This document shows, one piece after another, positions 17,731-62,875 of a stretch of 64,000 bases of DNA (position 1 is its first letter; the number at the start of each line of letters is the position of its first letter). Both the position numbers and the translations under genes were made by a program. The notes beneath the pieces were generated by a model. The model saw only the letters and a program-made list of their open reading frames with translations. It had not been told where the DNA came from and made no database searches. Origin of the DNA: Phytophthora sp. 'mugwort' (lineage: Eukaryota; Oomycota; Peronosporomycetes; Peronosporales; Peronosporaceae); contig JAUCEF010000007.1 in the NCBI GenBank assembly GCA_033558025.1, positions 9,672,001-9,736,000 of the forward strand, given 5' to 3'.

Positions 17731-21127
<3,397 letters not shown>

Positions 21128-39520: not shown

Positions 39521-40057
39521 CATTTCTCCTTTCATCCTTGCTGGTGCTGGTCGGTCCACTGAATCGACCAATACAATTCTCAAGGTTTTGTGAACCATTC
39601 CATATGGTTCGGAGAGGTGTCGTCGGGGGTCCGATTGCGTACTTAGATGTGACATAGTGAAATCCGGTGCCGTCGCGGTTTCGGTCGATTTGCAGATTGA
39701 TTCGCCCGACCAATCGACCGCGGAAGTTTCAAGTATACCGCTCAATACTCGCGCGGCCCAGTCGACCCGAGCCCCGACCGCACTTGAGTCCATTAGCATC
39801 ACTTGTATGTACCCAACCGTACTTAGCCAAAACCTCTTCATACCAAAATTTGGTACTACCCGTATTCATTGTTAAGCTGGCCCCCTTTTTTTCAGCGACA
39901 AACCCCACTCTTTTTTAATATAGTGAGTGGCAGTTAAAGGGACGTCATCGATAAGTCTCCCCTCATCCAATTTACCCAATCAGAATTCATTAGGGAGAAA
40001 ACCGCAGAAGCTAAGTCGATCGCTTGTTTTTGTATTTTTCAAACTTCGATGCTCCAG
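39521..40057. other. Transposon-flanking DNA up to the viral inverted repeat
   Basis: Composition changes from mixed to AT-rich near 39890. A pair of open frames at 39482-39875 (both strands) cannot be assigned. Weak similarity to the start of the first viral ORF, in reverse complement, may extend the left repeat arm out to about 40015. Confidence 0.35.
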
Positions 40058-40257
40058 ATGTTTTCAGTTGGGTGTATCTATATACATAGCCTATACTTTC
40101 TTAATAAAATTAAGTATCTTATTGATCGCTGGAAGGTAAAGGTCGTCGGCATATGCGACAACGTGTAACGCTTGAGCCTCATCCTCGTGTTCTAACCCTA
40201 CCAACAGCTGGATATTAAGAAATGTTTAGAAACGGTTAGAAGCGTTTATACCTACTA
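40058..40257 (+). repeat. Left arm of the viral-end inverted repeat
   Basis: The reverse complement matches 40838-41083, with several long identical words: taggtataaa, gcttctaaccgtttctaaac, gcgttacacg, tgtcgcat and tatatagatac. The outer end atgttttcagttgg pairs with ccaactgaaaacat at the first viral start codon. The overall match is imperfect but continuous over about 200 bp. Confidence 0.75.
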
Positions 40258-40815
40258 CAGTCGCACCTCTATAAGTGACACCCGATCGATCCGGGCCAGG
40301 ACGTTGTTACATTTAGAGAGTTAGTCAGAAAGAGAATTGGCTACAGTCACATTTGTGTGAAAAAAAACTATCTAGTGACGTCTGCCGCCGAAGCTTCACA
40401 ACTTGTGCTCTAGCTACCGTCGTCAAGGGCTGCAGCATTTCCTGCTCACGTTTTGTATCCTCTTCACATTGGAATAAAAGCGAAGAAAGCTCCATACAGT
40501 AGGCGAGCGCTGTCGATGCTGACACAGGGGGCTGGTTGTTCTCATCGTCTTCGTGCTCCTCGTCCACGTCATCACCAGCCTCTCCAGCAGCATTGGGGTC
40601 ACTATCGTCTTCTGGTAGCTCGTGAACTTCAGTCTCAGAATCAATCTTCAAATATCTGACAGGCTGTCGTGTGCGCTCACCCCGTCAAGCATGCTCGCAA
40701 TATCGTCTATCACCTTTTGGTCAGCAGCCAACGCATAGTCTCCTGCTTGCCGGAGCTCCCCCAAGTCGTAACTTTCAGAATTTACGTGTACGTTTTTTTA
40801 AAATTCGATAATTCT
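40258..40815 (-). mobile_element. Pogo/Tigger transposon fragment (C-terminus plus one TIR)
   Basis: At 40258, directly after a TA dinucleotide, is cagtcgcacctctataagtg, a classic pogo/Tigger terminal repeat. Minus-strand frames at 40651-40325, with a shifted upstream part to about 40800, encode an acidic region (EDDSDPNAAGEAGDDVDEE) ending in QTSLDSFF, the usual C-terminus of Tigger/CENP-B-like transposases. The DDE core and the other TIR are absent. The fragment sits between the two arms of the viral inverted repeat. Confidence 0.65.
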
Positions 40816-40837
40816 TACCTTACTTCTGTATCGAGAG

Positions 40838-41083
40838 TAGGTATAAAATGCTTCTAACCGTTTCTAAACATTTCTAATATTTAGCTGTTGTTTCGACGAC
40901 GCAGCGATTCGATAGGGTTAGAGTAAAAGGATATACTAACGCGTTACACGCTGTCGCATAAGCTATGGATCATTAACATCGAGTCAAAATAAATTTAATA
41001 AACTCCGCGATCAATTGAATTAATAAAAATTATCTTAAAAAAGATAGGGACTGTGTATATAGATACATCCAACTGAAAACATG
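40838..41083 (+). repeat. Right arm of the viral-end inverted repeat
   Basis: Inverted partner of 40058-40257. It runs directly into the start codon of the first viral ORF (41081), so this arm is probably the virus's own terminal inverted repeat. It is about 45 bp longer than the left arm because of an insertion near 40895-40925. Confidence 0.7.
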
Positions 41084-41491
41084 TCGAACGAATATACTTT
41101 TGGAAATACAAGACCAAGGATCGAGGAAATATATTCTTCTGATCCTGGTAATTATCGATGGGTATTTAACCAACCGAGTTTAAATATTGGAGAAGATATT
41201 AATATATTCCTACACTCCAACTTTCTGACTGATGGTAATTCATATATGATGACGTGGGGGAAATATCGAGTTAAGTCTCTCAAACAAATTAGTCGAACTG
41301 ATCCCGATTATATTGATGGCTTCGAACGAGTCAATTCGTAATTGATAACAGTCCTAAGCTTTTAGCAGAATTAAACGAAGATAACAAAGTTTTTTTTTAC
41401 TTAAGCTACGACAGAATTATGGGTGTCCTCACAAGTTGATCTTATTTTGTTTTCTCTCGACGAATGGTATCCAAAGTCTATGCGGTCGTAA
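41081..41491 (+). pseudogene. Viral ORF of unknown function, frameshifted
   Basis: An 86-codon frame begins MSNEYTFGNTRPRIEEIY and stops at 41341. Protein-like sequence continues in a second frame (SPKLLAELNEDNKVFF) and then a third (LILFSLDEWYPKSM) to a stop at 41489-41491, so the original protein was about 137 residues with two later frameshifts. I do not recognise it. It converges on the capsid gene, overlapping its 3' end by about 14 bp, and its start codon lies at the inner end of the terminal inverted repeat. Confidence 0.55.
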
Positions 41492-43051
41492 AATGGATCA
41501 CTTCACCTGTAAGCCGATCAAAAGTCAGCTCCTGCTCGCTCACCATGATCACCAATCATATTTCCCTGGTATCCTGCGTTTGTTCCTTAATTCTGAATCG
41601 CTTGGGGTACATCACGCTCGGTTAGGCGACTAACGTCAGCAATGCGCGCGCGGTTCGTTAGAGGCCACGTTTGACAGTCAAGAAGACCGTTTACCAGCTC
41701 AGGGGTAAGATCACCATTGATCGAAGAAATCTTAGCAACTTCATTCGTAAAGTGATGGAAATCGTAATCATGACTGATATCAAAGGTCTGCTGGGAACCC
41801 ATACGAACATTAAAGTTTCTAATACTGGATCCGGGGTGGAGAGTCCAAGGAGCTGAATCAAAAGGACTTTGGAACTCCTGAACAGCAGCATAGGCAAAGC
41901 TTCCAGTTTGCTCAGCAAAGGCATTATAATTACATACTTGGCGTTCTTTATAGAAGCAGATAGTTGTAGATCGAATGACACATTGACTGAGTCCATTGTG
42001 CCTAGCAATCATTAAATCGAACCTTCTTAACTGCCTTTGAGATAATAGCCTGAGGATTCTCAAGATGTACAAACGGAACGTATCAACGAGAAGTGGTAAA
42101 AGGCATGTAGGTACCATTAAAAGTAGGCTCAAGGGCATTGCCAACAGCACCCCAAGCAATACTGAACCCGGCAGAAGCGGCAAGAACTCCAGCCATCCCG
42201 ATTTCCAGTGGATGAAGCAAAAATCATAATTGGACATGTATCGCCAGAGACAAGAGTAGTACAGGTCAGCGACATACCCTTCGAAGCATCGACAGCAATA
42301 GTAGAAGTACCTTCATACGTTCCCATGATTGCGTTAGCAGTAGCAGCACCAGCTACAAAGGCACCACGCGCCAATTGATTTCAGATTGTGGTAGAAGCTG
42401 CAGCTCCACCGAGCGAAGGCCACGACGTGGAGAAATCAGAGCCCGCGTTAGGAGGGTTTCGTAACAGACGCTTTACAAGACCATCGTTGACGATAGAAGC
42501 ACCACCAGAGGGGCCAGTAGTAGCGAATGAGAAAGAGAATGCTGTAGTGTTAGTATAACCATCTCCCGTTGTCGAATAGTAGCAGAACTATACAAAGCTG
42601 ACTGAGCAGCGTCCGGGAAAAGAAAGACTCCGCACCATGCTTCTCAACGACTGAGGACTATAGCTAGTCTGAGCGCGAATGTTGTTCCAAAAATAGCTTG
42701 TAGTCCGACATACTAACAACGGTCTTGCCATTAAGTTCAAGCGACAAGCTATCGATGACATTCCAGTTACCGCACTTCAGCGTAGAGCAGAAACGATTGG
42801 CAGCAGCCGTCTGGACAGTAGCACCATTCTTATCTTGTATGGAGCATGACGTATGCATCGCGAAGGCAAGCAAATCCTTCACTTCCATTCAAACGGGCTG
42901 TAGCATCGATAGTTATAACGCCATTCTGGTAAGATCCTTGATTAAGATCGATTGCAAACGGTACACGTTTGCCGGAAGATACTTTGATCTCCGGGTCGCT
43001 TTGAAGCGAACTCTGGTATAAATACTGATCGGATAGTTGAGTTTCACTCAT
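41478..43051 (-). pseudogene. Major capsid protein (double jelly-roll), frameshifted
   Basis: Reading in minus-strand frames gives about 524 codons, the usual size for a Polinton/PLV MCP. The N-terminus MSETQLSDQYLYQSSLQSDP and the following VSSGKRVPFAIDLNQGSY are typical of PLV capsids. Later blocks include NGKTVVSMSDYKLFLEQH, RGAFVAGAATANAIMG, CVIRSTTICFYKERQVCNYN and FAYAAVQEFQSPFDSAPW, with a C-terminal QELTFDRLTGEVIHFTTA. At least four frameshifts and a stop interrupt it. In PLVs and Polintons this protein forms the trimeric hexon-like capsomer of the icosahedral shell. It is divergent from the protease gene, the starts lying 47 bp apart, and so shares its promoter region. Confidence 0.8.
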
Positions 43052-43098
43052 TGTTGAATCTATACGGTTCTAATATACTTTTGAGGAAATTAAATATA
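43052..43098. promoter_or_regulatory. Divergent viral promoter region (capsid/protease)
   Basis: Only 47 bp separate the capsid start codon (minus) and the protease start codon (plus). The stretch is very AT-rich (ttaaatataatg just before the protease ATG), as in compact late-gene promoters. The role is inferred from geometry. Confidence 0.35.
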
Positions 43099-43440
43099 AT
43101 GAGCGATCTTATTGAAGCCATTGTGAGGGACTATAACCTGATTGAGCTTGCAAATCGAATAGGAGTACATCTGGATAATATATATGAATCAAACGAAATA
43201 ACGAAACCAATCCCAAAAGAAAGGTACCTACCTACTTGTTTTATTAAGACCTCCTAACCATGCTGTAGACCCTGGACCTGTGTCTTCAACGGTGAATACT
43301 TTGATAGTATGGGTGAGACGGGTCCTACCAAGTATGGGCTTGGAAACTACAACCCTAAACAATACCAAGGTACATACGTGGACTATTGTGGAATATGGTG
43401 TATGCTCTTCCTGTATTGCAAACAAAAAAAAATAAGATGA
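43099..43440 (+). pseudogene. Adenain-like maturation cysteine protease, one in-frame stop
   Basis: The frame starts at MSDLIEAIVRDYNLIELANR and is open except for a single TAA at 43255-43257, after which the same frame continues to a TGA at 43438-43440. Downstream of the stop are the family hallmarks: a Trp preceded by a degenerated His position (PWTCVFNGEYFDSMG), then YVDYCGIWCMLFLYC, which matches the catalytic Cys motif (CGxWC) of adenovirus-type and Polinton proteases. The expected histidine of the HW dyad reads as Pro (or a nearby Arg), so catalytic function is doubtful even apart from the stop. In relatives this enzyme cleaves capsid precursors during maturation. Confidence 0.7.
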
Positions 43441-43524
43441 GTCTACTAGCTAGGTTTAAGGACTTAAACTTAACTATTCTTTAAATAAAATCAGTTTTTC
43501 TCTTATATAAATAATACAAACAAG

Positions 43525-44269
43525 ATGTTCAAAGAGTTAGCAGTTTCAGCGTCTATCCCAGAGACAAAGCTCAAGAGAGCATTCAAGACAGGCATTCTAT
43601 CACTCAGCGCAACCGAATTGGCTGGAAACGATGCTACGCTCCATCTTCATCCTGAATCATATGCTAAAGCTCTTCGAGCTTGTAAGTCTGGTAAAGGAAC
43701 TCTGTTAGCCATTACGAAAAAAGAGGTTGGCTATCCATTCAAGCACATGCAAGGTGGAGGTATGCATGGAGCGAATATCTGGGGAAACATTTGGGGAGGT
43801 ATCAAATCTACTTTCAAATTTGCAAAGGACTCGGGCATTTTGTCTCGAGTTACTGGTGTAGCTGTCCCCGCACTTGCAACGTATGCTGGTCAATCAACCG
43901 CAGCCACTCCCAGCCAGACCTGCTATTCGATCTATGACGGGTATTGGAATTTATGACTCCGATAGCGATAGTGAAGGAGGACGTCTGACCAAGGCTGACT
44001 TTAGTAAAGGGGCCAAACGTGCTCTTGCCTACACGAAGCGCAAGGGTATTCTTACAGATGCTGGAGATGCCGGAGAAATTTTTCTCCTTTCCAAGGCAAC
44101 CCAATCTCAGTATAAATATTTAATAAAGTCGCTTCGTGGCGAAGTCCGTCGTCGTTATGGTGTTGGCGTTGTCGAGCCGAAGCAAAAGGTTTTTGTAAAG
44201 GGCTCGCAAGAAGCCCGCGAACATATGGCCAGATTGCGGTCTATGAAGAAGAACGGAGGAAGTTTTTGA
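43525..44269 (+). pseudogene. pVI/core-like virion protein (GGG, W-rich), frameshifted
   Basis: The first frame (43525-43956) begins MFKELAVSASIPETKLKRAF. It carries KHMQGGGMHGANIWGNIWGG followed by a Phe/Lys-rich amphipathic helix and a hydrophobic segment. Around 43870-43920 the frame shifts to a second one, which contains GIGIYDSDSDSEGG, many Lys/Arg residues and the terminal KGSQEAREHMARLRSMKK. Small proteins combining a GGGxxG/IWGxI amphipathic helix with a basic C-terminal KGS-EA--HMA-LR motif are common in Polintons and PLVs. They are compared to adenovirus pVI or pX (membrane-active and DNA-associated virion proteins). This assignment rests on motif and position between protease and penton. 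Confidence 0.55.
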
Positions 44270-44309
44270 ATGTGAGTTCCGCCTCATTTGATTTAAAACT
44301 AACTCAAGT

Positions 44310-45184
44310 CTATTGTATTGGTCTTAACAAGAACATAATATGAAACTGAAGTATCACGGAATCTCACCTTTTGGTCATTCTGGTTAGAGATACTGATTGT
44401 GATAGTCAATCTCGAACCATTGTAGCAATTCATCCACGCATAGTGAGATGACTTATAGTTGATCAGCTGGCCAATACCCGCCCCGCCTCTATCAAAAGCG
44501 CTTAGGATATCACCGGATGCGACGTAATCATTTTTGATCAGATCACAGCGAACGATATATGAACTGGTTGGGTGAATCTGTGGAATGGTATTGGATAGCT
44601 GAGCGCTGGCAACTATGCTGAGGCAGCAGGATATGTTGCTATAGACAATCCAAGGACTGAGCCAAAAGCAGCGTTTTTTTATTGATTGATGATCAGACGA
44701 GGAACGCGAGTCGTTGTAGGCAAACCAGTTCCTCCAGCTGAATATAGACCAGTAGCAGGTCTCGTGTATCCCACAGGAAGATTCGAAGGAGATGGAGAGA
44801 AGTCGATATGAGCTGCATAATAGACGCTGTTCTCAGTCAATTTGATATAGAATACGTGTTTCCTGTAACATCAATAAGATACGCTCCAGCATTAACGAGA
44901 GGTGTCTGAATACTCCGGTTGATGTCATCGTAGGAGCAATATCCATCAGCGAGATTGATACTAATTGTAGAAGTGGTAGTAGCCGTCGGAACCTCGACTT
45001 GAGATGTTGTATTCTGAAATTGAGTAGAATCGATGTTATACTCGCTATTAAGAAGACAGATTGATTGGATGGCGCAAACAACATCGCAGAAGTCAACTGC
45101 TGATCCCGGAAACTGATATTTTCACGACGAATTGTATCCATCTGCTACGAGGTTGGTGCTATCGATTTTCAAGAAACTCGACAT
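44310..45184 (-). pseudogene. Penton-like minor capsid protein, frameshifted
   Basis: It starts MSSFLKIDSTN at 45184. An early TGA is followed by a series of frames with QNTTSQVEVPTATTTSTISI, LADGYCSYDDINRSIQTPL, VYYAAHIDFSPSPSNLP and GLPTTTRVPRLIINQ. The C-terminal part is the clearest: SSYIVRCDLIKNDYVASGD, FDRGGAGIGQLINY, SRLTITISISNQNDQ and VSYYVLVK. The β-rich C-terminus with I-CDLI-ND, GDIL and LTI-IS-N blocks resembles the single-jelly-roll penton proteins of Polintons and virophages, which occupy capsid five-fold vertices. About 290 codons in total, with four or more frame breaks. It converges on the pVI-like gene, 40 bp away. Confidence 0.6.
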
Positions 45185-45249
45185 GATGACTATATGATGA
45201 TCATCAAATCTTAGCTGATATTTATTCAAAAGCTTCAGTTTTGATTGAT

Positions 45250-45935
45250 TTATCGAAGTTGTATCTGATTTCCCCCCTTCACAGAGTCGATGAGCAACAT
45301 CTGGCCTTTGCTTTCAGTTGCCTTATTGTAATAATAGACGATTGAGCGATCATCTACGCCCTTTATATTAAAATCCTTCACTACCATATGGAGGTCGCGT
45401 TTCGAATTAGCTTTTAGAATCACTACATACTCAGAGTTCAACCTGACCATCTTATCAGTTACAAAGTAGCTGTGGCTTAGAAATATAGTTGATAGCTGAA
45501 GTGCGACCTCTTGTCATGTAATGAGAAAATATATTCTTCTGGAGTAGCTTATCGTTGCTGTAATCGTCTATGATAACAAGCTCGGGTTTGTTAGAGCACA
45601 AGGTGTATGATGCACCTGATCAACTTTCGGAGGGTTATCTGGGTCAGTGAAAGTGATGAAATCTTCAAGCTTGTCGCGAAGACAATCACAGAGCTCTTGA
45701 TGTGGATTACGAGCAATGATCGTAAGATGGGCAAATACGTGTGGAGACCATTTGAGAATGAAAAGGCAGAGATTGTTCTTTCCGCTGAATGAGGGGCCAA
45801 GAACTACCATTCTAAAAAGCTTATTGATATCGAGTGCAGGAATATCACTTATTCCAGCTGACTTGACTTTTTCGACAACGAAGCCCCATAGTTTGGAATA
45901 GCGCTCATGGTCGTGTCTTTTAATCGCTGGATCTA
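45250..45935 (-). pseudogene. FtsK/HerA-type genome-packaging ATPase, frameshifted
   Basis: A frame covering KLWGFVVEKVKSAGISDIP and VVLGPSFSGKNNL gives a Walker A motif (GPSxSGK). LTIIARNPHQELCDCLRD and FITFTDPDNPP follow, then a shifted frame with ELVIIDDYSNDKL (Walker B, IIDD) and FSHYMTRGRTSAINY, the sensor/arginine region typical of A32-like packaging ATPases. The C-terminal frame 45450-45250 has SEYVVILKANSKRDLHMVVK and YYYNKATESKGQMLLID. About 225 residues, normal for the PLV/virophage family. The start is uncertain because the ATG at 45908 is in another frame. It is divergent from the fibre gene with about 20-50 bp between, and is followed by the penton gene on the same strand. Confidence 0.75.
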
Positions 45936-45957
45936 TATAGATTAAGATAAAACAACA

Positions 45958-47380
45958 ATGAGTTCTGGCTTCTCGTATCCTCAGCCAATATACACATCAC
46001 CAATCTACAATCCTCAATTCTATCTGTCGTTAGACGCCAGTGGTTATCTAACAGACGAATATGCGCAGACTTTATATATTCGCAAGAATGATTTCGACTA
46101 ACCTACCTCACCGGTATTACTCCTGGAACAGCAACACAAGGTGTGCGCTTGTACCAGGTACTAACAAAGATATCAGTGGCATTAGAACACTATCTTGCAC
46201 TAGCCTGATTATGAATGGATACGCCATGTCCCCTGCTCCTGATTACATAATGAGCATCATTCCAGGTACAGCCGCTAATCAAAAGCACTGGTACTTGACA
46301 GTTCAGGCGCTAGTGCTACTATCAGCTCGCTCACTGCTACCAACATTTACGGGACCATTAAAACAGCAACTCAGCCATCAATCACGTCTGTGAGTACTCT
46401 CTCATCGCTGACGCTGGTTACAGCCGGAACAGGCTAATAGATACCATCGTTGAAGTTTTGGGATGGTGTATCGGCTTACACCACATTTAATCAGACGTAC
46501 TACCTCGGCATAACAGAGGGCGGTGCTACTGGTTCTAAAGCAACGATTCTCAATTCAGCGAAATACTTCTCAGGTGTTAATTCGTTCTCAGCTTCAACCA
46601 TCAATGGTATTACGAAGACTTCTGGCACAATTGGCGACTTCAATCGCTTCAAATCGGTTCAACGACGGTGATCATCAAGTCGCAATATTTCAAATATTAA
46701 CTCGCTTTCTGCTACATCGCTAACAGGTACTCTCCTGACTGCCTCTCAGCCAAATATTACGAGTGTTGGTACACTGACTTCTCTAAGCGTGTCTGGCAGC
46801 CTGACGGTATCGGCTAGTATAAATGGATGTTTAGGATATGGTAATCAGGCGGCTATAACGACGTAAGATCCTTGACCGCTAAACGTCCCTGGTACACAGT
46901 CTCTGTCAGTTTTGGAACGGGGGGCAGTACGGTCTATAGGCTGCGGACGGACAGTGGAGTAACGGAGAGTGCACTGGGTCCTATTAGCTATAGCATGGCG
47001 GCAGTCTTTGGAGGGTACATTGCTTGCACTGCAATGGTGATGGCCTCAGACAGACACCTAAAAAGGATATTCAGATTGCACCTCTTCATCGTATCAAGAG
47101 ACTCTATGACAGCGTTGACGTATGCTTGTACGACTGGATCGAATCCGAGAATCGTCCAGGTCAAGAGGTAGGTCTCATCGCTCAAGATCTTGTTTCGGCT
47201 CATCTGACTGATTTGGTATCGGTTTTCTATCGAGATGATATTGAGGAAGGAGAAGATCCATCGCTTGAGCCTGCTAAACAACAGCTGAACGTTGATTATA
47301 GTCGCATAGCCGTTTACAGTATGGAGATGATTCAGTATTTACTTAAAGCAATTGAGGATCTGCGAGCGATTATACGATAA
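45958..47380 (+). pseudogene. Fibre-like protein with C-terminal S74 intramolecular chaperone domain
   Basis: It begins MSSGFSYPQPIYTSPIYNPQ, with SLDASGYLTDEYAQTLYI, then a stop at 46099-46101 and frame changes. Repeated units follow along the length: VPGTNKDISGIRTLS, ATNIYGTIKT, SINSLSATSLTGTL-like blocks, SQPNITSVGTLTSLSVSG. This is the repeat style of trimeric fibres in phages and PLVs. The last ~115 codons show SDRHLKKDIQ, VGLIAQDLVS and a final helix VYSMEMIQYLLKAIEDL, matching the Peptidase_S74 chaperone, whose Ser (in SDR) and Lys (LKKD) form the self-cleaving dyad. A receptor-binding spike role is likely by analogy. At least five frame breaks are present. Confidence 0.65.
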
Positions 47381-47388
47381 ACTCCGCG

Positions 47389-47621
47389 ATGATAGCAAAT
47401 GCACAGTTAAGCAATTTCTTTGGAGCTAATACAATCATGGGTTACAGACTGAGTAAAGATCTCAGAACATTCTGACTACCGATGAACCAAGTCAAATTAT
47501 TGGCTCGACTTTATTAAAAGCGGATCAAATCATAGTTTTAGGTGACAGCGTGTGTCTACCCACACAGAGTCCTGATGGAGAATCTGCCATACTTGAGATT
47601 AGTATTAGTGATAAAAAATAA
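47389..47621 (+). pseudogene. Small viral ORF, unknown, frameshifted
   Basis: It begins MIANAQLSNFFGANTIMG, shifts near 47475, and continues with TDEPSQIIGSTLLKADQIIV and DGESAILEISISDKK to a stop at 47619-47621. About 77 residues of β-type composition. It follows the fibre by 8 bp and may be a companion structural protein; no family is recognised. Confidence 0.4.
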
Positions 47622-47639
47622 CTTTTATTACCGTTGGTA

Positions 47640-48220
47640 AGGGGCGCAGCCGCAGCCGCTGTCTCGAGGGTATCGGAATAAACTGGTAAGAAATGGAAAA
47701 AAGGTTTTATAGTTTTTCTTTTTATTTTTGGCTGGTAAACCACAAACGACCTCCCTCAGTCTGAGTCGATACATCTACCTTCTTGATAGTTTGTTAAGGT
47801 CAGTTGCCCAAACAGCTGCTTGTGTTTTCTGGGGTCGATCATGGATTATTAAATTCTGAATTATGACTTTGAGCTCAGCGACATTAAGATCGCTTTTGTC
47901 ACCATAGCTACCACCCGGAACTTGAAATAATCCGTGGATTAAAAAAGAACATGATCAAAAGTCGAAGCAAGTTCTCTTAGTTTACTAATTATAGTAGACG
48001 AGTGATAATAGGCTTGAATTCTTGATCACTGATAAGTTGATTGCTGTACATATCCACGGTGAGAGACTTAAGCTGCTTGATTATGCTTGAATTATCGCTC
48101 GCTAGCTCAAGTTCACCCCTTTAGCTTACCATACTCACCTCGAAGAGTCTTCAACGGATCCTCGGGCTTATCGTGGAAGTTGTACTGGAGATGGGTGGTG
48201 GCAAATATCTCCTTGAACAT
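47640..48220 (-). pseudogene. Viral ORF of unknown function, broken
   Basis: From ATG 48220, frames read MFKEIFATTHLQYNFHDK, then SIIKQLKSLTVDMYSNQ, KPIITRLL and, after more shifts, QVPGGSYGDKSDLNVAELK with IHDRPQKTQAAVWATDLNK. Together this makes a roughly 190-residue protein, with a Lys-rich C-terminus, that I cannot name. It is the first member of a long minus-strand series reaching to the right end. Confidence 0.45.
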
Positions 48221-48322
48221 TTTTATCCTCGATTTTGAGCTTATCGTATGAAGCTTGATCGATATGTTGCTTATAGACGAGGATTTTTTATCATAGCTTG
48301 AAGATTGTCACTAATCTGACAC

Positions 48323-48860
48323 TTAGGCCACATTTTCTACGTTAGGCTGTACCAGCACGAGTGTCGTAGAATCTAGATCAGCCAAACGAATGTACTTGCT
48401 ACCAAGCTGACGATATATGTATGCAGACGGGGTAGCTAAGCCCTGAATCTCATTCAGATTGTATATTCTACCTGTCGAACTACACCATCAAGTGGTGCAA
48501 CACCAGCGCCTCTTAGACCACGACCCTCTAATTTAGGCTTTGGATCACTGAGAGCTTCAGAGTATCGCTTAGCTTTGAATTATATACAGCTTTCATAGCT
48601 TTAACTGCTGATTGTGTAGCTTTCAAAGCTGACCTTATTGATTTTGAGTTTGACCCTTCCACAGCTTCTCTAGTTGCTTCATGTCGCTTCTGTGCCTCTC
48701 CATACTCCTGGTAAGCCCGTTCAGCGTCAACATGGAGATTTTGTAATACTTCGTCGTGATCATATGGCTCAGCACTTTGCACTTTAATATCAGATGCGTT
48801 TCTAAACATGACTTCACGAACAATCTTGAAATTGGCATTTACATTCTTAATCATTTTCAT
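48323..48860 (-). pseudogene. Viral coiled-coil/Gly-rich protein of unknown function, frameshifted
   Basis: The clean N-terminal frame (48860-48528) begins MKMIKNVNANFKIVREVMF and contains an Ala/Lys/Glu-rich helical region. A shifted frame follows with KPKLEGRGLRGAGVAPLDG, GRIYNLNEIQGLATPSAYIY and RQLGSKYIRLADLDSTTLVL, ending at a TAA near 48323. The last block (KYIRLxDLDSxTLxL) recalls a motif in virophage and PLV proteins of unknown function. About 180 codons. Confidence 0.45.
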
Positions 48861-48899
48861 CTCTTCTTTGGTTGCTGGGGTTTCATATTACTCACAGCC

Positions 48900-50519
48900 T
48901 GATGTACATCTTTCAGCTCATTCAGTAGTAGATCGAACGTATCCATCCATCTAATAGTTTTCATAACATCAGTCCAAGCTTTTCCGTAAACAATTTTACT
49001 GTCCTTGTTTCTAATGTTTAGAGTACGATCACGCATTGGTGCACCAAATAATAGATTGGGTGAGTTCTTACACCAGTTCTAGAATCTACCACAGGTCGAA
49101 GGCGAAATGGAATCATAATCTTCTCATCAAGAATCGTATAATAATACTCGTACAGCATTTCCTTAGCTTCACTGTCGAAGATATATATATTTTGATCCAA
49201 GTCTTCGTCAATTCCAGTTTTAATACCATCACGTCCGTCTCATTCGTCATCACCAGCAGTAGCTTCATATGATTTTATAACCCTTTCAGAATCCATTTTC
49301 CCCACCATAGAGAGTTCTAAACCCCTGCTCTTGACCATGTTCAAAAAGGCTCGGAGTGTTGATTGCCAATCAACCTTGTTGTTTGATGATGGGTGTTTCA
49401 AATTTGATTCGTTTCCGTACACATCTATGGATCATATTTTTACCCAAACATACTGTTTGAGGTTGTTCCGTCAGATTTATACATCTCTTGGTGAATTGGT
49501 ACAACACTCTTCATCAGACCATTAGACTCTAATACCTCCATGCTTTTTGAAATAATCCAAAGCAACTGGATTCGATTGTGTTCATTACAGCTGTTGTCGA
49601 AGTTGATTTCCGACCAAAATGAATGTCAGGTAGTCTACGATCCTTAAGAATAACTTCGAGTTCTCTAATTCCTCACCAGCTCGCTTCTTTTTTTTTAATC
49701 GCGTGACTGTTCGCGCTTGAGTTTCCTCATCACGTATGGCTCCAACTTCATCGATTGAGTTACTTTCACCTTCATATAAGATACCCCTGATTAGTTCTTC
49801 AGTAGCTAACCAGTCAATATGCTTATATCCTTTTTATTTCTTCCCAGTATGTTCTGATCTGAGAGAACCCTTTTCTCTAATAGCATACTTTTTTTCATCT
49901 TGCTTACCCCTTTTTTTCTAATGGGATGAATACTAATAGAAGCCCAGTTTGGATTTTCTATTTAAGATTGTTAATCCAGTTCCTGGAATGAACTTGCTCT
50001 TCCGTATCAACATTGTTAGCGCTCAAGTCTCTTTTTGTTGATGTTGCAACATTTATTATTTGGAGTGTTATCAATTGCAGCATTCACCATTTGTGGACTG
50101 TTGTTAACACCAACATCAAATGTTATGGGTTGAGCCTGTACGTTTCGATCAGTCATATTGACTCGATTTGTATTCGTAAAGGTGCTCTTTGTTATAGCAC
50201 TATTATCAATTTCGGCATCTACCATAATACGCTACTTATAATGGACTAACATTTACTTCAGAAATTGATGAGACCTCAGGGTTTGTCTGGGAGAATTTAT
50301 CACTCAGAGTTTTCTTAAAGAATCAGACAAATCTGTCTGAGTTGATGTAGATAATGATGTCTTTTCCAAGTCAATAGTTTTATCGGCATCGCTGGCCCAC
50401 GATGCACCTTCATACATACCGCGCTTGGTGTTAGCTTGTCTAACGCATCGCTGAGCTCGCTCAAGAAGCTCCTGTCGCTTTTGCTCTCTCTGAGCGAGGG
50501 ATTTGAAATTGGGGAACAT
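48900..50519 (-). pseudogene. Large viral ORF region of unknown function, heavily broken
   Basis: A minus-strand series of protein-like frames begins at ATG 50519 (MFPNFKSLAQREQKRQELLE) and continues with MVDAEIDNSAITKSTFTNTN, KHIDWLATEELIRGILYEG, RSRGLELSM-like text, MDSERVIKSYEATAGDDE, DQNIYIFDSEAKEMLYEYYY and KIMIPFRLRPVVDSRTGV. It could be one ~500-residue protein or two genes. No helicase, methylase or nuclease motif is visible. I do not recognise it. Confidence 0.4.
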
Positions 50520-50654
50520 TGTGGCTATATCATGCGTATCGTAAAAAATGAGTATTCATAATTACCAAAAGCTCGGCATAACTAAATCATGTCGGTACGG
50601 GACACACGTATGACAGATGGTGTTTCTCTCTTTTAAAAGGCTAAAATATATCTC

Positions 50655-50852
50655 CTAAATGCAATGAAATGGAACGCCAAAGATTGTTTCCAATTTACGT
50701 TGATAGTTACGATTAACAACAGTTGTGTGGAACTTGGATACTGCATCAAGATTCAGCAACTCGTTTTTAATGCGGCATACTTCCTGAATTATCCGTAACT
50801 TTCGCCGTATCTTAACAAGCTCGCGGTCTTTACCTAAGCAGTTCGTACACAT
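50655..50852 (-). CDS. Small viral protein with a CxxC start, intact
   Basis: This frame of 65 codons is one of very few in the virus without a break. It starts MCTNCLGKDRELVKIRRKLR, a CxxC pair followed by a basic helix, and has a second helix around AVSKFHTTVVNRNYQRKLE. A small DNA- or RNA-binding protein is possible; nothing in the sequence settles it. AT-rich DNA on both sides may carry promoters. Confidence 0.4.
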   Translation of the reverse strand: MCTNCLGKDRELVKIRRKLRIIQEVCRIKNELLNLDAVSKFHTTVVNRNYQRKLETIFGVPFHCI

Positions 50853-51117
50853 TCCTTTTATTTAGAGTCTATATATATATAGAGAGAGAGTCGCATATAA
50901 AAGCTCGTACAAAACAAATTGTGGCGGATAATACACTTGAGTCAAAGCTTACAGAGGATGTCTCTATCAGATTTATTACCAAGCTGATTATGTCTCACCA
51001 TTTATGTATTTTTTGAATTCCAGTACTCCTTTTCGAGAGTCGATCTTCTACTCTTATTAACAAGTCTAAGATTATCTTGTGGGTCCCAGGAATCAGGTTC
51101 ATCTCCGACCCAACTAA

Positions 51118-52079
51118 CTAAGTATTTATATTACCACTTCGCATATTTTTATGGTCTAAGATCCTCTCAGCTTCAAGGATATCGCCACGATTGATTGTTG
51201 CATCAGTTGGCTCTGATTGTATCATTTTAAGATCATTTGGTGCCTTGTAGAGTGTATAATTATTTCTGGACTTGATTTGTACTCGATACCCATCTATTCC
51301 GACGACTGTATACACAGCCTTGCTCCAGCGTACTGACTTTTTGTTGAACTTTGCTTCTTGAGTCGGTATAACACATTTGTTCCTACTTCGAATTTGTTGT
51401 CAATATCATCAACTTCCGCTTCATTATGGCTCAGCTCCGACTCGATGACCCTACCTTTGGCCTCATTTGGAGTCATTCCAATAGATCTATGAATAGTGCT
51501 GCTATAGTTATCAATAATATCGCTGACAAGCTTCTGCGTAATCTTCTTGGGTGATATTTTAGTTAGTCTGTGTTTGATCGTACTGTTGAATCGCTCAATT
51601 ATCCTTATTGTTCCGTGATCTCCTGGCTCGTTGTTGTAGTGCTCGATATTTTTGGATTTAAACCATGCTTGTGCTTGTTTGTCCATGAACTCACTCCCAG
51701 TGTCGCTGGTGATGATGTCTGCCTCATGAGATTGAACAAAATCTTTTCGCGCAGCCAATACGACTGATGCAGTCTTCTCTTTGAGTAACTTAGCGTAGCC
51801 AATTCGTGAGTTGATATTGATAACTGTCAGTATTGGTCACTTTTCCCAAAACCCGAGATCCATCTGCCATGAATTTGGGTTATGGAACGTGATTTTGAAC
51901 CCATCGTAGTGTCTTTTCGGCTCCTGGAAGCGTTGAATATCGGGCCGAGTCCCATACCATTCCTTCACTATTTGAACGTTATTTTTAGATCTAATTCTCT
52001 CGCTTTCTCATATAGAGCTCGAGCAGCAACTTATCCGGGTTTTGGATCGTAGTAAAGTTCTTCAAGATCCCAGCCATAG
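51118..52079 (-). pseudogene. Retroviral-type (DD35E) integrase, frameshifted at its N-terminus
   Basis: Frames from about 52079 read GWDLEELYYDPKPG and ARALYEKARELDLKITFK, then a shifted part with YGTRPDIQRFQEPKR, and NSWQMDLGFWEK with the first catalytic Asp. The long intact frame (51758-51294) carries IITSDTGSEFMDK (second Asp) and IIERFNSTIKHRL (catalytic Glu), with exactly 35 residues between them: a DD35E integrase core. The tail has KFEVGTNVLYRLKK and VVGIDGYRVQIKSRN, an SH3/chromo-like C-terminal domain. Polinton integrases insert the viral genome into host DNA. The N-terminus abuts the stop of the polymerase gene (within 4 bp), so the two were probably expressed together. No gag or reverse transcriptase is nearby. 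Confidence 0.85.
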
Positions 52080-52080
52080 T

Positions 52081-55000
52081 TTATATATTGTAATCAAATA
52101 AAAACTGTACGGCTTCTGTTTTCGACCAAAGACTTCTCCCTGAATATTTAGTGGGGTAGTTGATATGCCATTCGAAGACACATGTCGCTTGTCGTAGAAA
52201 TTTGAAGGTGGAGTTTTGCTCTAACTGTATGTGATGATTGATTCGTTTCTTTTGACAGCCCAAATCCCTTGTTAATATCCCGAAGTGTGATACGATCGCG
52301 AAATATTGACTAGAATCCCGAAAGGTTACATCCTCATTGCGACCACGACTCTGCTATAAACCCTTGGCCGATATCTTGACCTTATATAACTCATCTGGAA
52401 GATAGCAAATATATAGTATTACTCGATAGTGAGACCATGGCATCGCCTGGCCATGCATCCTTGACTAGACCAGGGGTTCAACGGTCAAACTTAGCTACTT
52501 CCTTGTTATAAGTCGCGCGGGAACCAATCGAACTGGTGCTGTTCATAAGCTCACGAAGCTCAGGTTTGATGCACTCTTGTGATGGTTTGTTTTTCTAAAA
52601 GCGATGTAGGCAGAGTCCGTGTCCATCTCTTGATATTAAAAATCGCTTCGATTGAAGTAAAAGTCAATGCACTCGTAGTCGAACTCAAGCATGCACAGCT
52701 TAGCAAGCTGGTAGATGGCAATGGACAAATGAATTGGGTACTTGTTATTTAGACGAAGTTTCTTCATATTTATCTCACAAGAATCATTCAGCTCCTCCAA
52801 TCCATCAAACGCTGAAGTGCTCAATACGCGACTTGATCTTAGCCTCCTTAGACTCATATTTGACTTGTTTGTGCTTACGCATGTCCATGCCCAATGTCCA
52901 AAAGCAGAATTGCCACCAATTTCATCATCTCAGCAATCATGGCCTTACTCTTATCTTTGTCACCGACACGGCGTGCGCTCGACACAGCATCCATGAATGG
53001 AGCAAACGCCTTGTGAGAGCTGGCCTGTATAAAGGAGTAAGTTTTTGTTATTTCCATTCCATGGGCTAGATACCATTTGAGAAGAGGTGTGTAGATCAGA
53101 ATCTTCTCACCGAAATAACTACCGATCCACTTACGAGCAGGCTTAGCTCGGCTTTTCCACGAGTCTGATTGCATTCATACATGCGTGAGCCAATGATGGT
53201 CTCATCGGTACAATCGATTAGTATATTCTTGAAAATTCGTGTCATCTCGCTAAAATACTCTTTAAGGTGCTCTGGGGTAAAGAATGTCACATTCAAGGAA
53301 GCCAATATCTTGTCAGCCTTGATGTCTTCGACGGTACCGGGATAAGTCGCGATAGTGGTCAATCGCCCGCACGGCATCTCATTACCGAGCACCCATAAGT
53401 ACAGTGCCTTAGCGTCGTATCCAATGATCTTCTTACAAGTCTTATTACCTCGATTTTTTTGTCTCGTTGCGTTTAGCGTAGCGGTTGAAGATAATTGATG
53501 GTCTGCCAGCGATGTTTGCCTTCATAAATGTCCTTCTCCTCACGATCAATCGAGTACACAAGTCTGTCTGAGTTGAATTCAAGTAGCTTATTGAATCTTA
53601 AACCAATGAGAGACATACTCTTGCGTGCGACGTTGCATTGAACGCATGAGATGAGAACATTACCGTCAATGTGCCCCAATTTGTTACTGATTCGATCGGC
53701 TGAATCAGTATCGACAATAAGCTGGCACCAGCATAGACCCCACAAAGATATTTTTGTCGTTTAAGCAAAGTGTTTAAGTGATCAAGGGTCATATTGAACT
53801 CACGCTTGGCATCAACATCTTGGGCTTGCAGCCACTCATACGCTTAGCTGAGAAACTGAAAGCTTTAGCAGGTACTTTTATAGGGTGTTCAAGCTCATTG
53901 AAGCAAGTTTGATACATAACCTTCTCCGAGAAGACCCGGAAGCGAGACACCATCAGCGAACATGTCGAGATCAAAACGTTTAAATAATTCACGCTGAGCC
54001 TCCATAGCTTAATAAATGGTACAACATCTAAGTTATTGTACCACATCAAAAGATCCTTGACTGTCTTCATTTTGTAATGTTCCCAAACGAACCTGACTCG
54101 TTTGTAATCTTCATTACTAATGTTGGTTCTCGGAAATCGCTGTTAAAAGCCAACTTTGAAGGAAGAGAAGTCTGATTGAGTACATCGAATGATTTGATGT
54201 GTTCATATGGAAATAAGCCTTTAGCAAGGCCGCAAACACAACGAATCTTGTCTTTGCACTCACACTCACCGAGATACGTACTAAGATACTTCTCATAGAT
54301 TGTTCCAGCAGGAACATAGTTGCTAATATCAAGCATCTTCAGGTCTGAGGTAGCGATACACATATAGCTCGGGATCTTGATCACAGATTTGATGTTCTCC
54401 GTACCAATTACGGCAAACAGATCGCTCTTAATCAAATTGATATCATATCTACCGGAGTTAAACCCCCCATACTGGTACCTGATCGAGCTGTTTCTTGATT
54501 TTACCGTAATCAGACCTCTCCTTCCCAAAGGAAATTTCCTATGAAAAAATCTAAGATACTGGCATACGTCCCATCCTTGATCCAGCTATCAACGTCATGC
54601 ATTGAATACTTCTTCCCAAGCTTCAAAGCAGGGATATCCATACCACCAAAACCATGAGCTTTAATAATCTTCTGTAGAAGGGAGGCATACTTTTGGACAT
54701 TGTACTGCTGAATATGTAACCGACTTCCATAATGTAACTAAATATATATCTTAGCAAATCTTTTGGCTCAGCATTAACAAAGCATCGTACCTTTCCGGAA
54801 AGACTGTCAGTTACCGATACTGAAACAGGAATATGCTCATTTGTAAAGACAGTGCTTTCATCATGTTGGATACCCGTCGGCTTAGAATGGCCTCAAAATC
54901 ATAAACGATGAAGTGATCAATGTAGTGATCGAGATTTTTAATGGAGTACTTTGTCAGCATCGATTTGATAGTGTTCTGAGGCTATCTGTAAATAGTTGGC

Positions 55001-55470
55001 TCAGCTGGAGAACTTTCAATATTGACAAGCTCACATTGGTTCTTCTTATGTGTCGGAGCTAACCAAAATCATCTCACACTTTGGACACTGATACTTGCTT
55101 TGAAGCATGTTCAGATTACTGGTGTAGAGAGCATGATTCTCGTGAGATAAAATATTGAGACGTTCATATTTCTTATACGACGGGCGGATGCATTCAATTT
55201 TTCCCGACGCCACATCCATCGTATATACACTGATGCTGAGCTTGAAGCAATCTTCCCATCGAGCTGCAGAAGATCGATCGGTTTAAAATTGCGAAAGAGC
55301 TTCATCGAGTAGCTAAGACCTTTATAAGAACAGTAGCGATTGAATACCAGTTTCACCAGAGCCTGTATTCTCTGATAATCTTTCTCCGGGTCTGATCGAG
55401 TGTGATAGGCAATGCAATGGGAGGCGCACTTATTGCTTGTCTTAGGAAAATTGCAGAAATGATAGCATTT
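52081..55470 (-). pseudogene. Protein-primed family B DNA polymerase, frameshifted
   Basis: About 1130 codons of minus-strand frames. N-terminal Cys/His-rich region: CYHFCNFPKTSNKCASHC and a CPKC pair near 55080. Exonuclease region: HIPVSVSVTDSLSGK, then GGFNSGRYDINLIK (ExoII) and WYNNLDVVPF. A zinc/HNH-like insertion has DRISNKLGHIDGNVLISC and CNVARKSMS (53690-53600). Polymerase motif A region: GYDAKALYLWVLGNEMPCG. Motif B: KLVGNSAFG in split frames near 52920. Motif C: DTDSAYIAF near 52610. The C-terminus has AWPGDAMVSLSS, YLPDELYKVK and SRGRNEDVT. This order fits the pPolB of Polintons, which start replication from a protein bound at the terminal repeats. At least ten frame breaks make it non-functional. 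Confidence 0.85.
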
Positions 55471-55710
55471 CCTTCATGCCTGCGAAATAGTCGACGAGCT
55501 GCTGCTCGAACTCAGTAAACTTCACCCAATGCCACCGAGTTGCTGACGAATTCGCGCTGCAATAGTAAGACGGCTGCTTGTTTCGAATACGCCGAATAGT
55601 GCTGATGCTGATGGTCTTTCAAAGGTACTGCAGGATCATAGCAACAGCTTTCATATCCCTTATCCTGGGCTCGCGGTGGGCTTTCAAGCAGGTCTGGAAC
55701 TTCTCCTCCA
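55440..55710 (-). pseudogene. Possible pogo-type HTH transposase N-terminus
   Basis: A minus-strand frame reads MEEKFQTCLKAHREPRIRDM, then a TGA, then KTISISTIRRIRNKQPSYYC and WVKFTEFEQQLVDYFAGMKE before merging into the viral polymerase region. The spacing of a psq-type helix-turn-helix followed by a CENP-B-like EFEQQLVDY segment resembles the N-terminus of pogo/Tigger transposases. It is on the same strand as the pogo C-terminal fragment on the other side of the virus. The match is weak; a different frame over the same DNA (55751-55512) is also open. Confidence 0.35.
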
Positions 55711-56300
55711 TCGTCAACGAAGGCGTTCGGCCTTGGGGTGGTATGGCTCACGGCTGGAAATGCTAGTTCGGACTGAGCGCTGAGGCGAGAGGTTGGGACT
55801 GAACGTTCTCCAGGAAGAGGTGCTGTCTAAATGACTGGCAGACAGCGGTCGAGAAACAATAGGCGGGGAACCGTTTGGCGTCCATTTAGGGAGTCCCCCA
55901 CCCGCTCTGGTTATCAGTTAGAGAGTAAGGATGGTTTTGATCAGTTATAGAACGACAATAGTGATAGTCATATTGTCTCATTTGCGCACAGAGAAGACTA
56001 ACCAGATACAGGATGTGTAGTCAGGTAGGGAGGCTCAGTAAGGGAGGTGTGACTGTATTGATACCGAAATTAAGGTAAGGATTTTTATCGGGAATTAGAA
56101 AATGTACACGTAAAGTGATGAATATTTCTATTACCGCAGCTACAGCCTCTCTCACCGTCGCTGAGCCGACGAAACCCGCTTTCGATACCGTCACCATCGT
56201 CTTCTGTGGCGTCTTCATCGAGTCTGAAAAGCTTTGGGGGAGAGCGCAATGCTTTCGAGATGGATGTCTTAACCTCAACTGAGTACAATAATCTTCGAGT
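55711..56300. other. GC-richer DNA right of the virus, no clear gene
   Basis: Composition returns to host-like. Open frames at 56021-56365 (minus) are short and match nothing I recognise. Confidence 0.4.
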
Positions 56301-56339
56301 TGCTTTCCACTGGTACTGAACAAATACGTTATTTGCCGA

Positions 56340-56731
56340 CTCCTCTGCCAACTACGCACCTGCATTCCCCTGTGTCACTGATCACGAGTCCGCCAGCTCC
56401 GGCGGCTCAAGCGTCATCGGCTCGAAGTCGCCACTGTCTAGACGACGCCACTCTCGACACCCCGCAGTACGACTTCCTGTCTGACACAGTCTTGAAGCTG
56501 AGTATTCCGGGCAAGTCATAGGCAGAGTCCAAGGCCGCGCTGCCGTCTTCAGCAACTACTAGAGAAGATGTCGTCCCTACGCCCACCTCGCCACCATCAG
56601 CTACACCCCATGGAGAAGACACAGCTGTCAGCCGAGCTAATGCCGTGTGCAGCAGCAGCTCAGAGAACTTCGACTGTAACGACATCGACGACATGCCCGA
56701 GTACTTCGAAGGTATGACGCTCCCTATCTAA
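56340..56731 (+). pseudogene. Possible host gene fragment with one in-frame stop
   Basis: A plus-strand frame has CLDDATLDTPQYDFLSDTVL, a stop (TAG 56518-56520) and continues in frame with Ser/Thr/Pro-rich text, ending in NDIDDMPEYFEGMTLPI. Composition resembles a host Ser/Pro-rich protein. It may be the end of a gene cut off when the virus and transposons arrived, or noise. No domain is recognised. Confidence 0.3.
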
Positions 56732-56893
56732 CCGTCTTCACTATTCCCTAAACTACTAACCGGAAATCAAAATTAAATACCTGGGCAGATAAGACTTCAA
56801 CTTGACTACCTATCATTTAACCTACTAATTTTGTATTCTATACAAAAGGTTTTCAACTATCGCCACGCATTTCAAGTACAGTAGCCGACTAGA

Positions 56894-58841
56894 ATGCTCC
56901 GCCGCCTGTGCGCATTGCGGAGCAACGCCCCCGCCGCCCGTGCTCGGCGTTTCGCCAGCGTTTCAGCTTCTACGACGACTGGAGAGAACGATATCGGCGT
57001 GTACGACCTCGATACCATCTACGCGCTATCCTCTGCACCCGGGAAGGCTGGCGTGGCGGTCATTCGCATCTCCGGTGATCAGGCAGACACGTGCCTGCAG
57101 CAGCTGAGCCAGTTGACGACGCTCCCGAAGCCTCGAGTGTGAGCGCAATTGAATATCAGTATCGAGATATTGATGGTAGTATTAGTCTGATGGTGGAATA
57201 TATGATGCAGTGCCGCGTTGAGGAAGCTGTACCACCCCAAGACGAAGGAGCATCTGGATGACGCGCTGGTGCTGCGTTTCCCACATCCCAAGAGGTGACG
57301 ACGATTAATACAATATTATTGTCAAGTGGGGGGCTGATTTAATGGTGAATTTGTTGCTCGGGTGCTCATAGTTTTACGGGCGAAGACATTGTGGAGCTGC
57401 AGACCCACGGAAGCGTTGCAGTGGTCTCTGGCATCTTGGAAGCGCTTAGTCATGTGTCGGTGAGTGCGTGAGTGAATATGTTGCAATTGCGAGTAACGTG
57501 ATAAAATTGAACACGTGTGGTGGTGCTGGGACAGCATTGCCGTGCTGCTGAAGCGGGTGAGTTTACGGAACGAGCATTTGACAACAACAAGATCGATTTG
57601 GTGCAAGTTGAGGGGTTGGCGGATCTGTTAAGTGCTGAGACGGAGGCGCAACGCGGCCAGGCGCTTCGACAACTTTCAGGTGATATTGGAGAGATCTACG
57701 AAGGGTGGCGTCACGGGCTAGTCAAGTGTTTGGCCTACACGGAGGCTATGATCGACTTTGGCGATGACGAAGATGATGTCACAGATGCTGCCTACGTGGC
57801 TGCAGTGGATCGGTATGAGTGATACTCGGATACTCATTGCATGAAAACCCCTTTCCAATCTTGCTGACACGTAGTTGTGCGTGGCGTTTTAGGGTTCGCG
57901 CGCTTGCAGATTCCATTCGAGGTCACTTGGCAGACGGCAGAAGAGGAGAAATCCTGCGCAGTGGCGTGCAAGTAGCTATCCTTGGCCCTCCCAATGCGGG
58001 CAAGAGCAGCTTGTTGAATGTTCTTGCACGGCGGCCTGCAGCAATCGTATCATCCATCGCTGGAACGACACGAGATGTCGTTCAAGTGCCGTTGAACATC
58101 GCCGGATACCCTGTCATTGTCAGCGACACTGCTGGACTGCGTGAAACAGAGGACATTGTTGAGAAGGAGGGCGTTCTGAGAGCCCAGCAATGTGCCAGTG
58201 GCGCAGATATTTGCGTAGTCATGATGGATATCCAGGTATGACGGATCTTGAGAGCAGATTCCATGTCACTTTTCGTGTCTAACGTTAGTCCTTGTATACT
58301 TGTATAGGAAGCTGTCCAACTGCACAGTGAGGAATACCAGTCTTATGTGCAGGATGGCGCGCTTGTTGTGCTGAACAAGAGCGATCAGATAGACGAGGAC
58401 AATATCGCAAGAATACTGCGATCTTTTGACTCGAAGCAGCGTGACCAGCTGCTCGTTGTCTCCTGTGCCGATGGGAACAACATCGACGTTTTCGTCGACA
58501 AACTTGCGATTACAGTGAAGGAAAAGTACGTATTACTTTAGAGCTTCACACATATATGTACAATCTCTTGGTATTCACAATAAATGTGTTTTATCTTTCA
58601 TAGGTTGAAGGTTTCTGCTGGAAATTCTGCTAACGGAGCGCTGATCACACGAGAGCGTCACCGCCAGAATCTCGTTGAGTGCCTCTCGTGCTTAGATCGA
58701 TTTCTAGTTGATCCTTACCAGAGTGAGATTGCGGCCGAGGAACTCCGTCGAGCTGTCATGGCGATCGGCCGGATCCTCGGCCGGATTGATGTCGAAGACG
58801 TACTGGACGTCCTTTTTGCTGACTTTTGCATCGGAAAATAA
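56894..58841 (+). CDS. GTPBP3: tRNA modification GTPase MnmE/GTPBP3 (mitochondrial)
   Basis: Seven exons: 56894-57138, 57211-57294, 57372-57459, 57535-57812, 57893-58235, 58308-58525, 58604-58841, encoding 497 residues. The first ~30 residues are Arg/Ala/Ser-rich without acids ([20 protein letters not shown]), a mitochondrial presequence. The TrmE N-terminal domain follows, with [28 protein letters not shown] and [10 protein letters not shown]. The inserted G domain has [12 protein letters not shown] (P-loop), a switch region [13 protein letters not shown] and NKSD. The C-terminus ends FCIGK, the invariant CxGK motif. With MTO1/GidA it makes the 5-taurinomethyl- or carboxymethylaminomethyl-uridine at tRNA wobble positions in mitochondria. 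All family motifs are intact. It is the first intact host gene after the viral region. Confidence 0.95.
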
Positions 58842-58903
58842 ACGGTCTGTCAGCTCTGAAAAGACGCCAAATTGTAGTCGTTTTGGCCAGACACCATCAA
58901 GGA

Positions 58904-61637: not shown

Positions 61638-61835
61638 GTCCTCTAAGCCTTTTTGATCCTGAATTATGAAACCTTAACCGATCCGCTCCAGTTCTTCGAT
61701 AGAACTGACTAACAGATGTCAGTCAGTTAATACTTAAGTACTTCGTAGATATAAGTAAATAAAACTCGTCTACAGCTTTAAGATGCACCCATTAAGTTGC
61801 GCAATCTCCGACTTCTTTCGCGCAACCTAATCCTT

Positions 61836-62712: not shown

Positions 62713-62875
62713 GAGCACGAGACTTCATAGAGGAAAAGGTGCGTTCATTGAGTCGAATGTTCCTAGACTGCTTGTCTCTGTCTGATCATACAAGAAGCTC
62801 TCATTTTGTTGATACCTACACGTGTACTAGCTATTTACTTGCTTCTCTTGACGTCGTGTCAGTTTTTCCAGCGGT

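Follow-up and report, generated by a model that had tools for sequence, protein, structure and literature searches.

A decayed, right-truncated Polinton-like virus and its multicopy family in the genome of Phytophthora sp. 'mugwort'

The locus considered here raises the question of whether a gene-bearing, AT-rich block in an oomycete genome is an integrated virus, a transposon, or something put together by other means. The block lies in a stretch of 64,000 nucleotides from Phytophthora sp. 'mugwort' (GCA_033558025.1, contig JAUCEF010000007.1, positions 9,672,001 to 9,736,000), which we call the window; in our searches of the 86.26 Mb, 154-contig genome it is G000:C7:9672001-9736000. A host protein-kinase frame has its best listed relatives in P. 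cinnamomi and P. ramorum, at 91% identity, in a protein set clustered at 90% identity that may hide closer ones. An earlier note, made from the letters alone, had described a Polinton-like virus, integrated and with a core gene set near-complete but broken. We find that one decayed element of the Polinton/Maverick type extends from 40764 to about 55490 of the window, and we hold, with a probability of roughly 0.93, that it belongs, as a broken copy cut short on the right, to a multicopy Polinton-like virus (PLV) family of this Phytophthora genome. The GC content of the element is 41.4%, against 50.5% in window positions 1-40000 and 56201-64000 taken together, which bears out the description as AT-rich.

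The genes were placed by tblastn, using as queries 17 open-frame pieces taken from relatives in the same genome. From left to right the remains are an ExoX-like C-terminal domain, the major capsid protein (MCP), a small 'pVI-like' protein, the penton, the packaging ATPase, a fibre with an S74 domain, a large gene, the integrase and the protein-primed DNA polymerase (pPolB); the capsid, penton, ATPase, fibre, integrase and polymerase named beforehand are thus all represented. Their broken state was also read correctly, the tblastn alignments showing 11 frame changes and 13 in-frame stops, 24 breaks in all, when MCP, penton, ATPase and integrase are taken together. Profile matches are found partly in the window and partly in relatives. 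The integrase profile PF00665 reaches 24.0 bits on a window piece (E 4.6e-5, below the cut-off of 32.6) and 39.7 bits in a relative; a chromodomain is present in the integrase of relatives. PF04665, for the A32-type ATPase, gives 29.5 and 28.7 bits in relatives (cut-off 22.8), and PF03175 gives 37.2 bits (cut-off 25.8) on the polymerase frame of a relative, to which the window remains align. The S74 profile PF13884 matches the window itself at 47024-47380, with E 1e-4, just above the curated cut-off. A gene-content definition of a Polinton used in PMC7805220 lists pPolB, RVE (the rve integrase), MCP, the minor capsid protein (mCP) and ATPase, and all five are found here.

The capsid genes were followed further through predicted folds of family members. 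For MCP the modelled protein is P0002 from P. rubi, which shares 95% identity with a relative of the window copy in the same genome; for the penton it is P0124, which shares 89% identity with a relative from that genome. The best fold matches of both include mavirus, Sputnik, other virophages and adenovirus, which would also be expected if the element were a virophage or an adenovirus relative instead of a PLV. That assignment is very improbable in view of the rve integrase, the pPolB, the 6-bp target duplication, the termini beginning with AG and the 18-19 kb unit. Also, oomycete MCPs have been published in the Gossevirus group, the MCPs of which lack BLASTP similarity to virophage MCPs (PMC7805220). 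Searches of MCP, polymerase and ATPase against PDB sequences returned no useful match.

The element had been called near-complete, which is right for the left end and the middle but not for the right end. Its left terminus is at 40764 and its right break falls within 55481-55500; these replace the limits first given, 40838..55470. The window copy begins AGTCGTAAC, and the majority of relatives have AGTAGTAAC at the terminus. The left terminal inverted repeat (TIR) alone was detected in the window copy, and no right one was found there. The polymerase match ends at 55500, at about residue 208; the right TIR and approximately the first 207 residues of pPolB have been lost. Compared with relatives of 18.4-18.8 kb, the right-end deletion removed about 3.7-4.1 kb of the element, if other lengths are unchanged.

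The complete form of the ends can be observed in relatives. TIR matches occur at both ends in three of them, on C7, C5 and C17, and none was found for six further stretches (L023-L028). The C7 relative, of 18,449 bp, has GGCATG on both flanks (6/6 bases equal), a 6-bp target duplication, and the C5 relative, of 18,819 bp, is flanked by GGGAGC and GGGAGT (5/6 bases equal). A lenient local alignment of the TIR covers about 0.6 kb at 78-79% identity. However, the ExoX-like gene, which adjoins the left terminus, lies in this span and in relatives with both ends is found at the capsid end only; therefore, the true TIR may be nearer 0.3 kb. The inverted repeats and target duplication of the relatives uphold the identification as an integrated PLV with a broken core set, as do the capsid and penton folds, the A32-type ATPase, the rve integrase, the pPolB and the existence of relatives whose frames are open.

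We then asked where the element inserted. On both sides it is flanked by parts of a DNA-transposon-like repeat of about 2 kb with TA at its ends. The left part as a query (40257-40763) matches nine other places in the genome, and the right side (55480-56150) matches 12 other rows. In seven of the nine places the left part has the right part after it in the same orientation; the spacing is 0.93-0.95 kb in five of these seven, the gap on C7 is longer, and on C4 the left part that survives is short. Since the two flanks are one repeat whose parts stand in the same order elsewhere, the element inserted in that repeat, and about 0.94 kb of the repeat was deleted. A pogo-like identity considered for the repeat from its ends was dropped after Pfam searches with two pieces gave nothing. 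The repeat in turn appears, as far as alignments can tell, to split the terminal repeat of an older Polinton. The segment at 56059-56122 aligns to the element's outer TIR with a score of 59, where 300 shuffles gave no more than 30, and the inner part of the same older terminal repeat is placed on the left side by inverted matches (Table 1). The order of events would then be an old Polinton, a DNA-transposon-like repeat moving into its terminal repeat, the present element moving into that repeat, and finally the right-end deletion together with point decay. At G000:C5:520434-522565, another copy of the 2-kb repeat directly adjoins a Polinton terminal-repeat match, perhaps a second nesting of both elements.

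The flanks also bear on whether separate Polinton fragments were joined into this block during assembly, which the earlier note had named as a result that would overturn its proposal. The many fragmentary copies in the genome could supply such pieces, but the gene order agrees with that of relatives, and the two flanks form one repeat, in the order seen in 7 of 9 places elsewhere, within one older terminal repeat. The split repeat on both flanks answers the objection, and we regard a join as extremely improbable.

The block read as a decayed PLV copy belongs to a family with many other members. Searching the genome gave at least 150 matches for the integrase (best 150 of 260 candidates scored), at least 155 for MCP (best 150 of 330) and at least 150 for the polymerase (best 150 of 273); some of these rows are pieces of one copy, and the counts are neither copy numbers nor complete. 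Many of the listed copies are short or bear stops. Among the matches listed there are also stop-free rows, with MCP frames above 500 aa and polymerase frames above 1000 aa, and open frames of capsid, penton, ATPase, integrase and polymerase persist in other copies. The suggestion that intact sister copies might exist is thereby borne out for individual core genes within the same genome. A public protein set contains 189 MCP relatives, and the best 120 of these comprise 84 from Phytophthora, 1 from Plasmopara and 35 without an organism name. Judged by the genome and protein matches, the family is large and widespread in Phytophthora. On contig C12, G000:C12:2344587-2509988 holds seven MCP matches that all point one way and are spaced 26.4, 26.4, 26.4, 27.2, 29.3 and 29.3 kb apart; among the matches listed, none for integrase or polymerase lies between them, as in a tandem-like array of capsid ends. 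In P. agathidicida, repeats including Maverick have been reported to separate a gene cluster (PMC9667082).

Elements of this kind have been described before. Fifteen oomycete elements were reported by Bellas and Sommaruga (2021; PMC7805220), four of them with both RVE and pPolB, and the P. infestans MCP was identified as Gossevirus-type; oomycete elements of the Gossevirus/GKS1 group are already published. Like the present family, members of that group are integrated in oomycete genomes, including that of P. infestans; some have TIRs, fewer show target duplications, and one virus cluster has a hypothetical protein in the place of the protease. The window copy differs in being right-truncated and decayed, and neither S74 or fiber wording nor a nuclease-like polymerase segment appears in the portion of PMC7805220 examined. 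P. infestans proteins are among the listed MCP relatives at 66-80% identity, in a comparison made within the public protein set. For most eukaryote groups, fibres with S74 (PF13884) are described as ubiquitous among the PLVs; the same work includes oomycete MCPs in GKS1 and finds the P. infestans polB in a cluster with PLV polymerases from cryptophytes (PMC12220804). The animal Polintons/Mavericks (Polintoviricetes) share pPolB, the rve integrase, the packaging ATPase, capsid proteins, TIRs and the 6-bp target duplication (for part of these features, PMC11071308), but the maturation protease was not found in this element. The window copy itself is ordinary, one further fossil, likely from a resident virus of a type already known. 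The wider point is that oomycete genomes hold large, partly recent families encoding what is apparently a virus shell, and no particle of these families is reported in the parts of the literature examined.

The claim that the element is a virus and not just a transposon can be addressed through selection on the family genes. Frames for the ratio of nonsynonymous to synonymous differences per site (pN/pS) were picked by hand with at least 100 codons aligned; an earlier count had dropped rows below 75% coverage and pairs with saturated synonymous divergence. In many pairs pS is near saturation, and some of the frames derive from copies that are themselves partly broken, the MCP of L019 being one example. 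With that understood, MCP has a pN/pS of 0.13-0.19 in seven of nine pairs (pS at least 0.33), as low as the integrase (0.14-0.18 in nine divergent pairs) and the polymerase (0.11-0.18 in eight pairs, one of them close). The penton gives 0.155-0.225 in six pairs and the pVI-like gene 0.14 in one. Pieces of the window copy against relatives give 0.08-0.26; thus, most of the divergence likely predates the decay of the window copy. The other two MCP values of the nine come from one young pair of copies, with 0.57 and 1.39 on two parts (pS 0.03 and 0.01), and six close integrase pairs range over 0.13-0.63. The family might now act as a transposon, multiplying within the genome with its capsid genes as decaying passengers. 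The young MCP pair, the upper integrase values, the many short or stop-bearing copies and the tandem-like MCP run on C12 all lean that way. However, unused capsid genes are not expected to stay constrained, and so the low capsid ratios in the divergent pairs speak against it; we consider it a possibility of the less likely sort. We read the two sets of pairs as capsid function that was under selection of long standing and seems to have been relaxed recently. Hence, the virus claim is supported for the ancestors, by purifying selection on capsid genes of divergent copies, but not for the youngest pair, in which MCP looks relaxed. Old selection on the capsid followed by relaxation in the youngest copies compared makes the family a good case for studying when and how a virus becomes a transposon.

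For working members of the PLV family, the gene content suggests a life cycle. They would copy linear DNA by the protein-primed polymerase; the DNA is predicted to be packed in a capsid built of double jelly-roll protein, penton and S74 fibre, and the rve integrase would likely insert it into host DNA. Virions presumably once formed, with the fibre binding a host.

Several results weigh against placing the block in such a family. The youngest MCP pair, showing no purifying selection, fits copying within the genome as well as it fits infection. The MCP model has a mean predicted local distance difference test score (pLDDT) of only 67.6. In the C17 relative the terminus pattern was not found. 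No relative was among the 12 pattern matches that the MCP alignment returned from IMG/VR, and no free form was seen. Finally, Polintons of the older definition have a maturation protease, and none was found. An adenain-like protease had been claimed, but the PF00770 profile gave no match over the genome, in a search whose control was also silent, such that absence is not proven; Pfam on the main frames gave no candidate, and in a by-eye reading of frames of at least 45 aa from two window gaps and from three stretches of relatives, none resembled one. Without the protease, the description as a full Polinton toolkit is not supported.

The polymerase contains an additional segment resembling endonuclease VII, an HNH-type nuclease. 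It comprises residues 776-872 and so follows the third exonuclease motif (699) and precedes motif A (908). PHROGs endonuclease VII and HNH families match it in relatives (L045, L046 and L050 among them). For endonuclease VII, three full polymerases give E 2e-8, 5.5e-7 and 4.9e-8, and two partial polymerases give 0.01 and 9.7e-4; the nuclease label is not unanimous, since one PHROG covering these residues carries the name Srd anti-sigma factor. Between the two most distant frames compared, identity is 62% in the segment, 61% in the palm and 46% in the exonuclease, which puts conservation of the segment level with that of the palm. A genome search with the segment gave at least 150 matches (best 150 of 216 candidates scored), the window included. 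We tentatively suggest that the family polymerases could be two enzymes in one, with a built-in nuclease for branched DNA between exonuclease and palm that might resolve folded or joined terminal repeats during copying and ready the DNA for packing. Other results count against a nuclease. Pfam Endonuclease_7 reached E 0.067 on one piece, behind a domain of unknown function (DUF) at 0.0053, and gave nothing on three others, including the window piece; a PDB sequence search with the segment found no solved nuclease, its sole match being a zinc peptidase at E 0.027. This type of nuclease usually has Asp-His. The segment has Gly-His at that position, which makes nuclease activity doubtful. If active, the segment would mean an unusual handling of inverted terminal repeats in protein-primed copying. 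The PLVs of PMC12220804 differ in having HNH units fused to helicases, among others, and other pPolB fusions, with helicase, have been reported (PMC12721341). In the literature searched, which left most subscription literature outside, no Polinton polymerase was found to be described with a nuclease-like segment, so such a description may exist.

Table 1. Positions of the element's parts and of its flanking repeats in the window.
Feature	Position	Strand	Basis or remark
Inner part of an older Polinton's terminal repeat, the rest of that copy being lost (apparent)	40016..40256	-	Inverted matches to stretches of 40836-41124
Left part of interrupted ~2-kb repeat (DNA-transposon-like, TA at ends), insertion target	40257..40763		9 other genome places
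Left terminal inverted repeat	40764..41080	+	Termini of relatives aligned; inner border not fixed
ExoX-like C-terminal-domain gene, one frame change	41081..41379	+	PF20600; tblastn
Major capsid protein, double jelly-roll family, 6 pieces, 6 stops	41481..43051	-	tblastn with open-frame relative; predicted fold of family member
'pVI-like' small protein, 2 pieces	43528..44266	+	tblastn with relative; label by position and size
Penton (minor capsid), 3 pieces, 3 stops	44323..45040	-	tblastn; predicted fold of family member
A32-type packaging ATPase, 2 pieces, 2 stops	45225..45861	-	tblastn; PF04665 in relatives
Fibre with C-terminal Peptidase_S74 chaperone domain, several breaks	45949..47383	+	PF13884; tblastn; relatives
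Large gene, function unassigned, heavily broken	47992..50546	-	tblastn with relatives' frames (667, 823 aa, shorter)
rve integrase, 4 pieces, 2 stops	51020..52066	-	PF00665; tblastn
Protein-primed DNA polymerase (pPolB) remains	52143..55500	-	tblastn; relative matches PF03175
Endonuclease VII-like (HNH-type) segment within polymerase	53524..53745	-	78% identity to relative residues 798-871, no stop
Right part of interrupted ~2-kb repeat	55481..56057		Genome search
Outer end of the older Polinton's terminal repeat (apparent)	56059..56122	-	Alignment to the element's outer TIR

The remaining genes are less well characterized. PF20600 on 41081-41338, in the ExoX-like gene, has E 2.2e-5, below the cut-off, and reaches 76.5 bits in a relative. 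For the large gene, Pfam gave no meaningful match. A pVI-like protein had been claimed, and a gene does exist at that position, but the 'pVI' label comes from position and size and finds no informative hidden Markov model match, Pfam giving weak sub-cut-off matches only and PHROGs none. Elsewhere in the window, 17732-20933 contains two pairs of 300-bp direct repeats, 99-100% identical and 2.45 kb apart, likely a recent local duplication.
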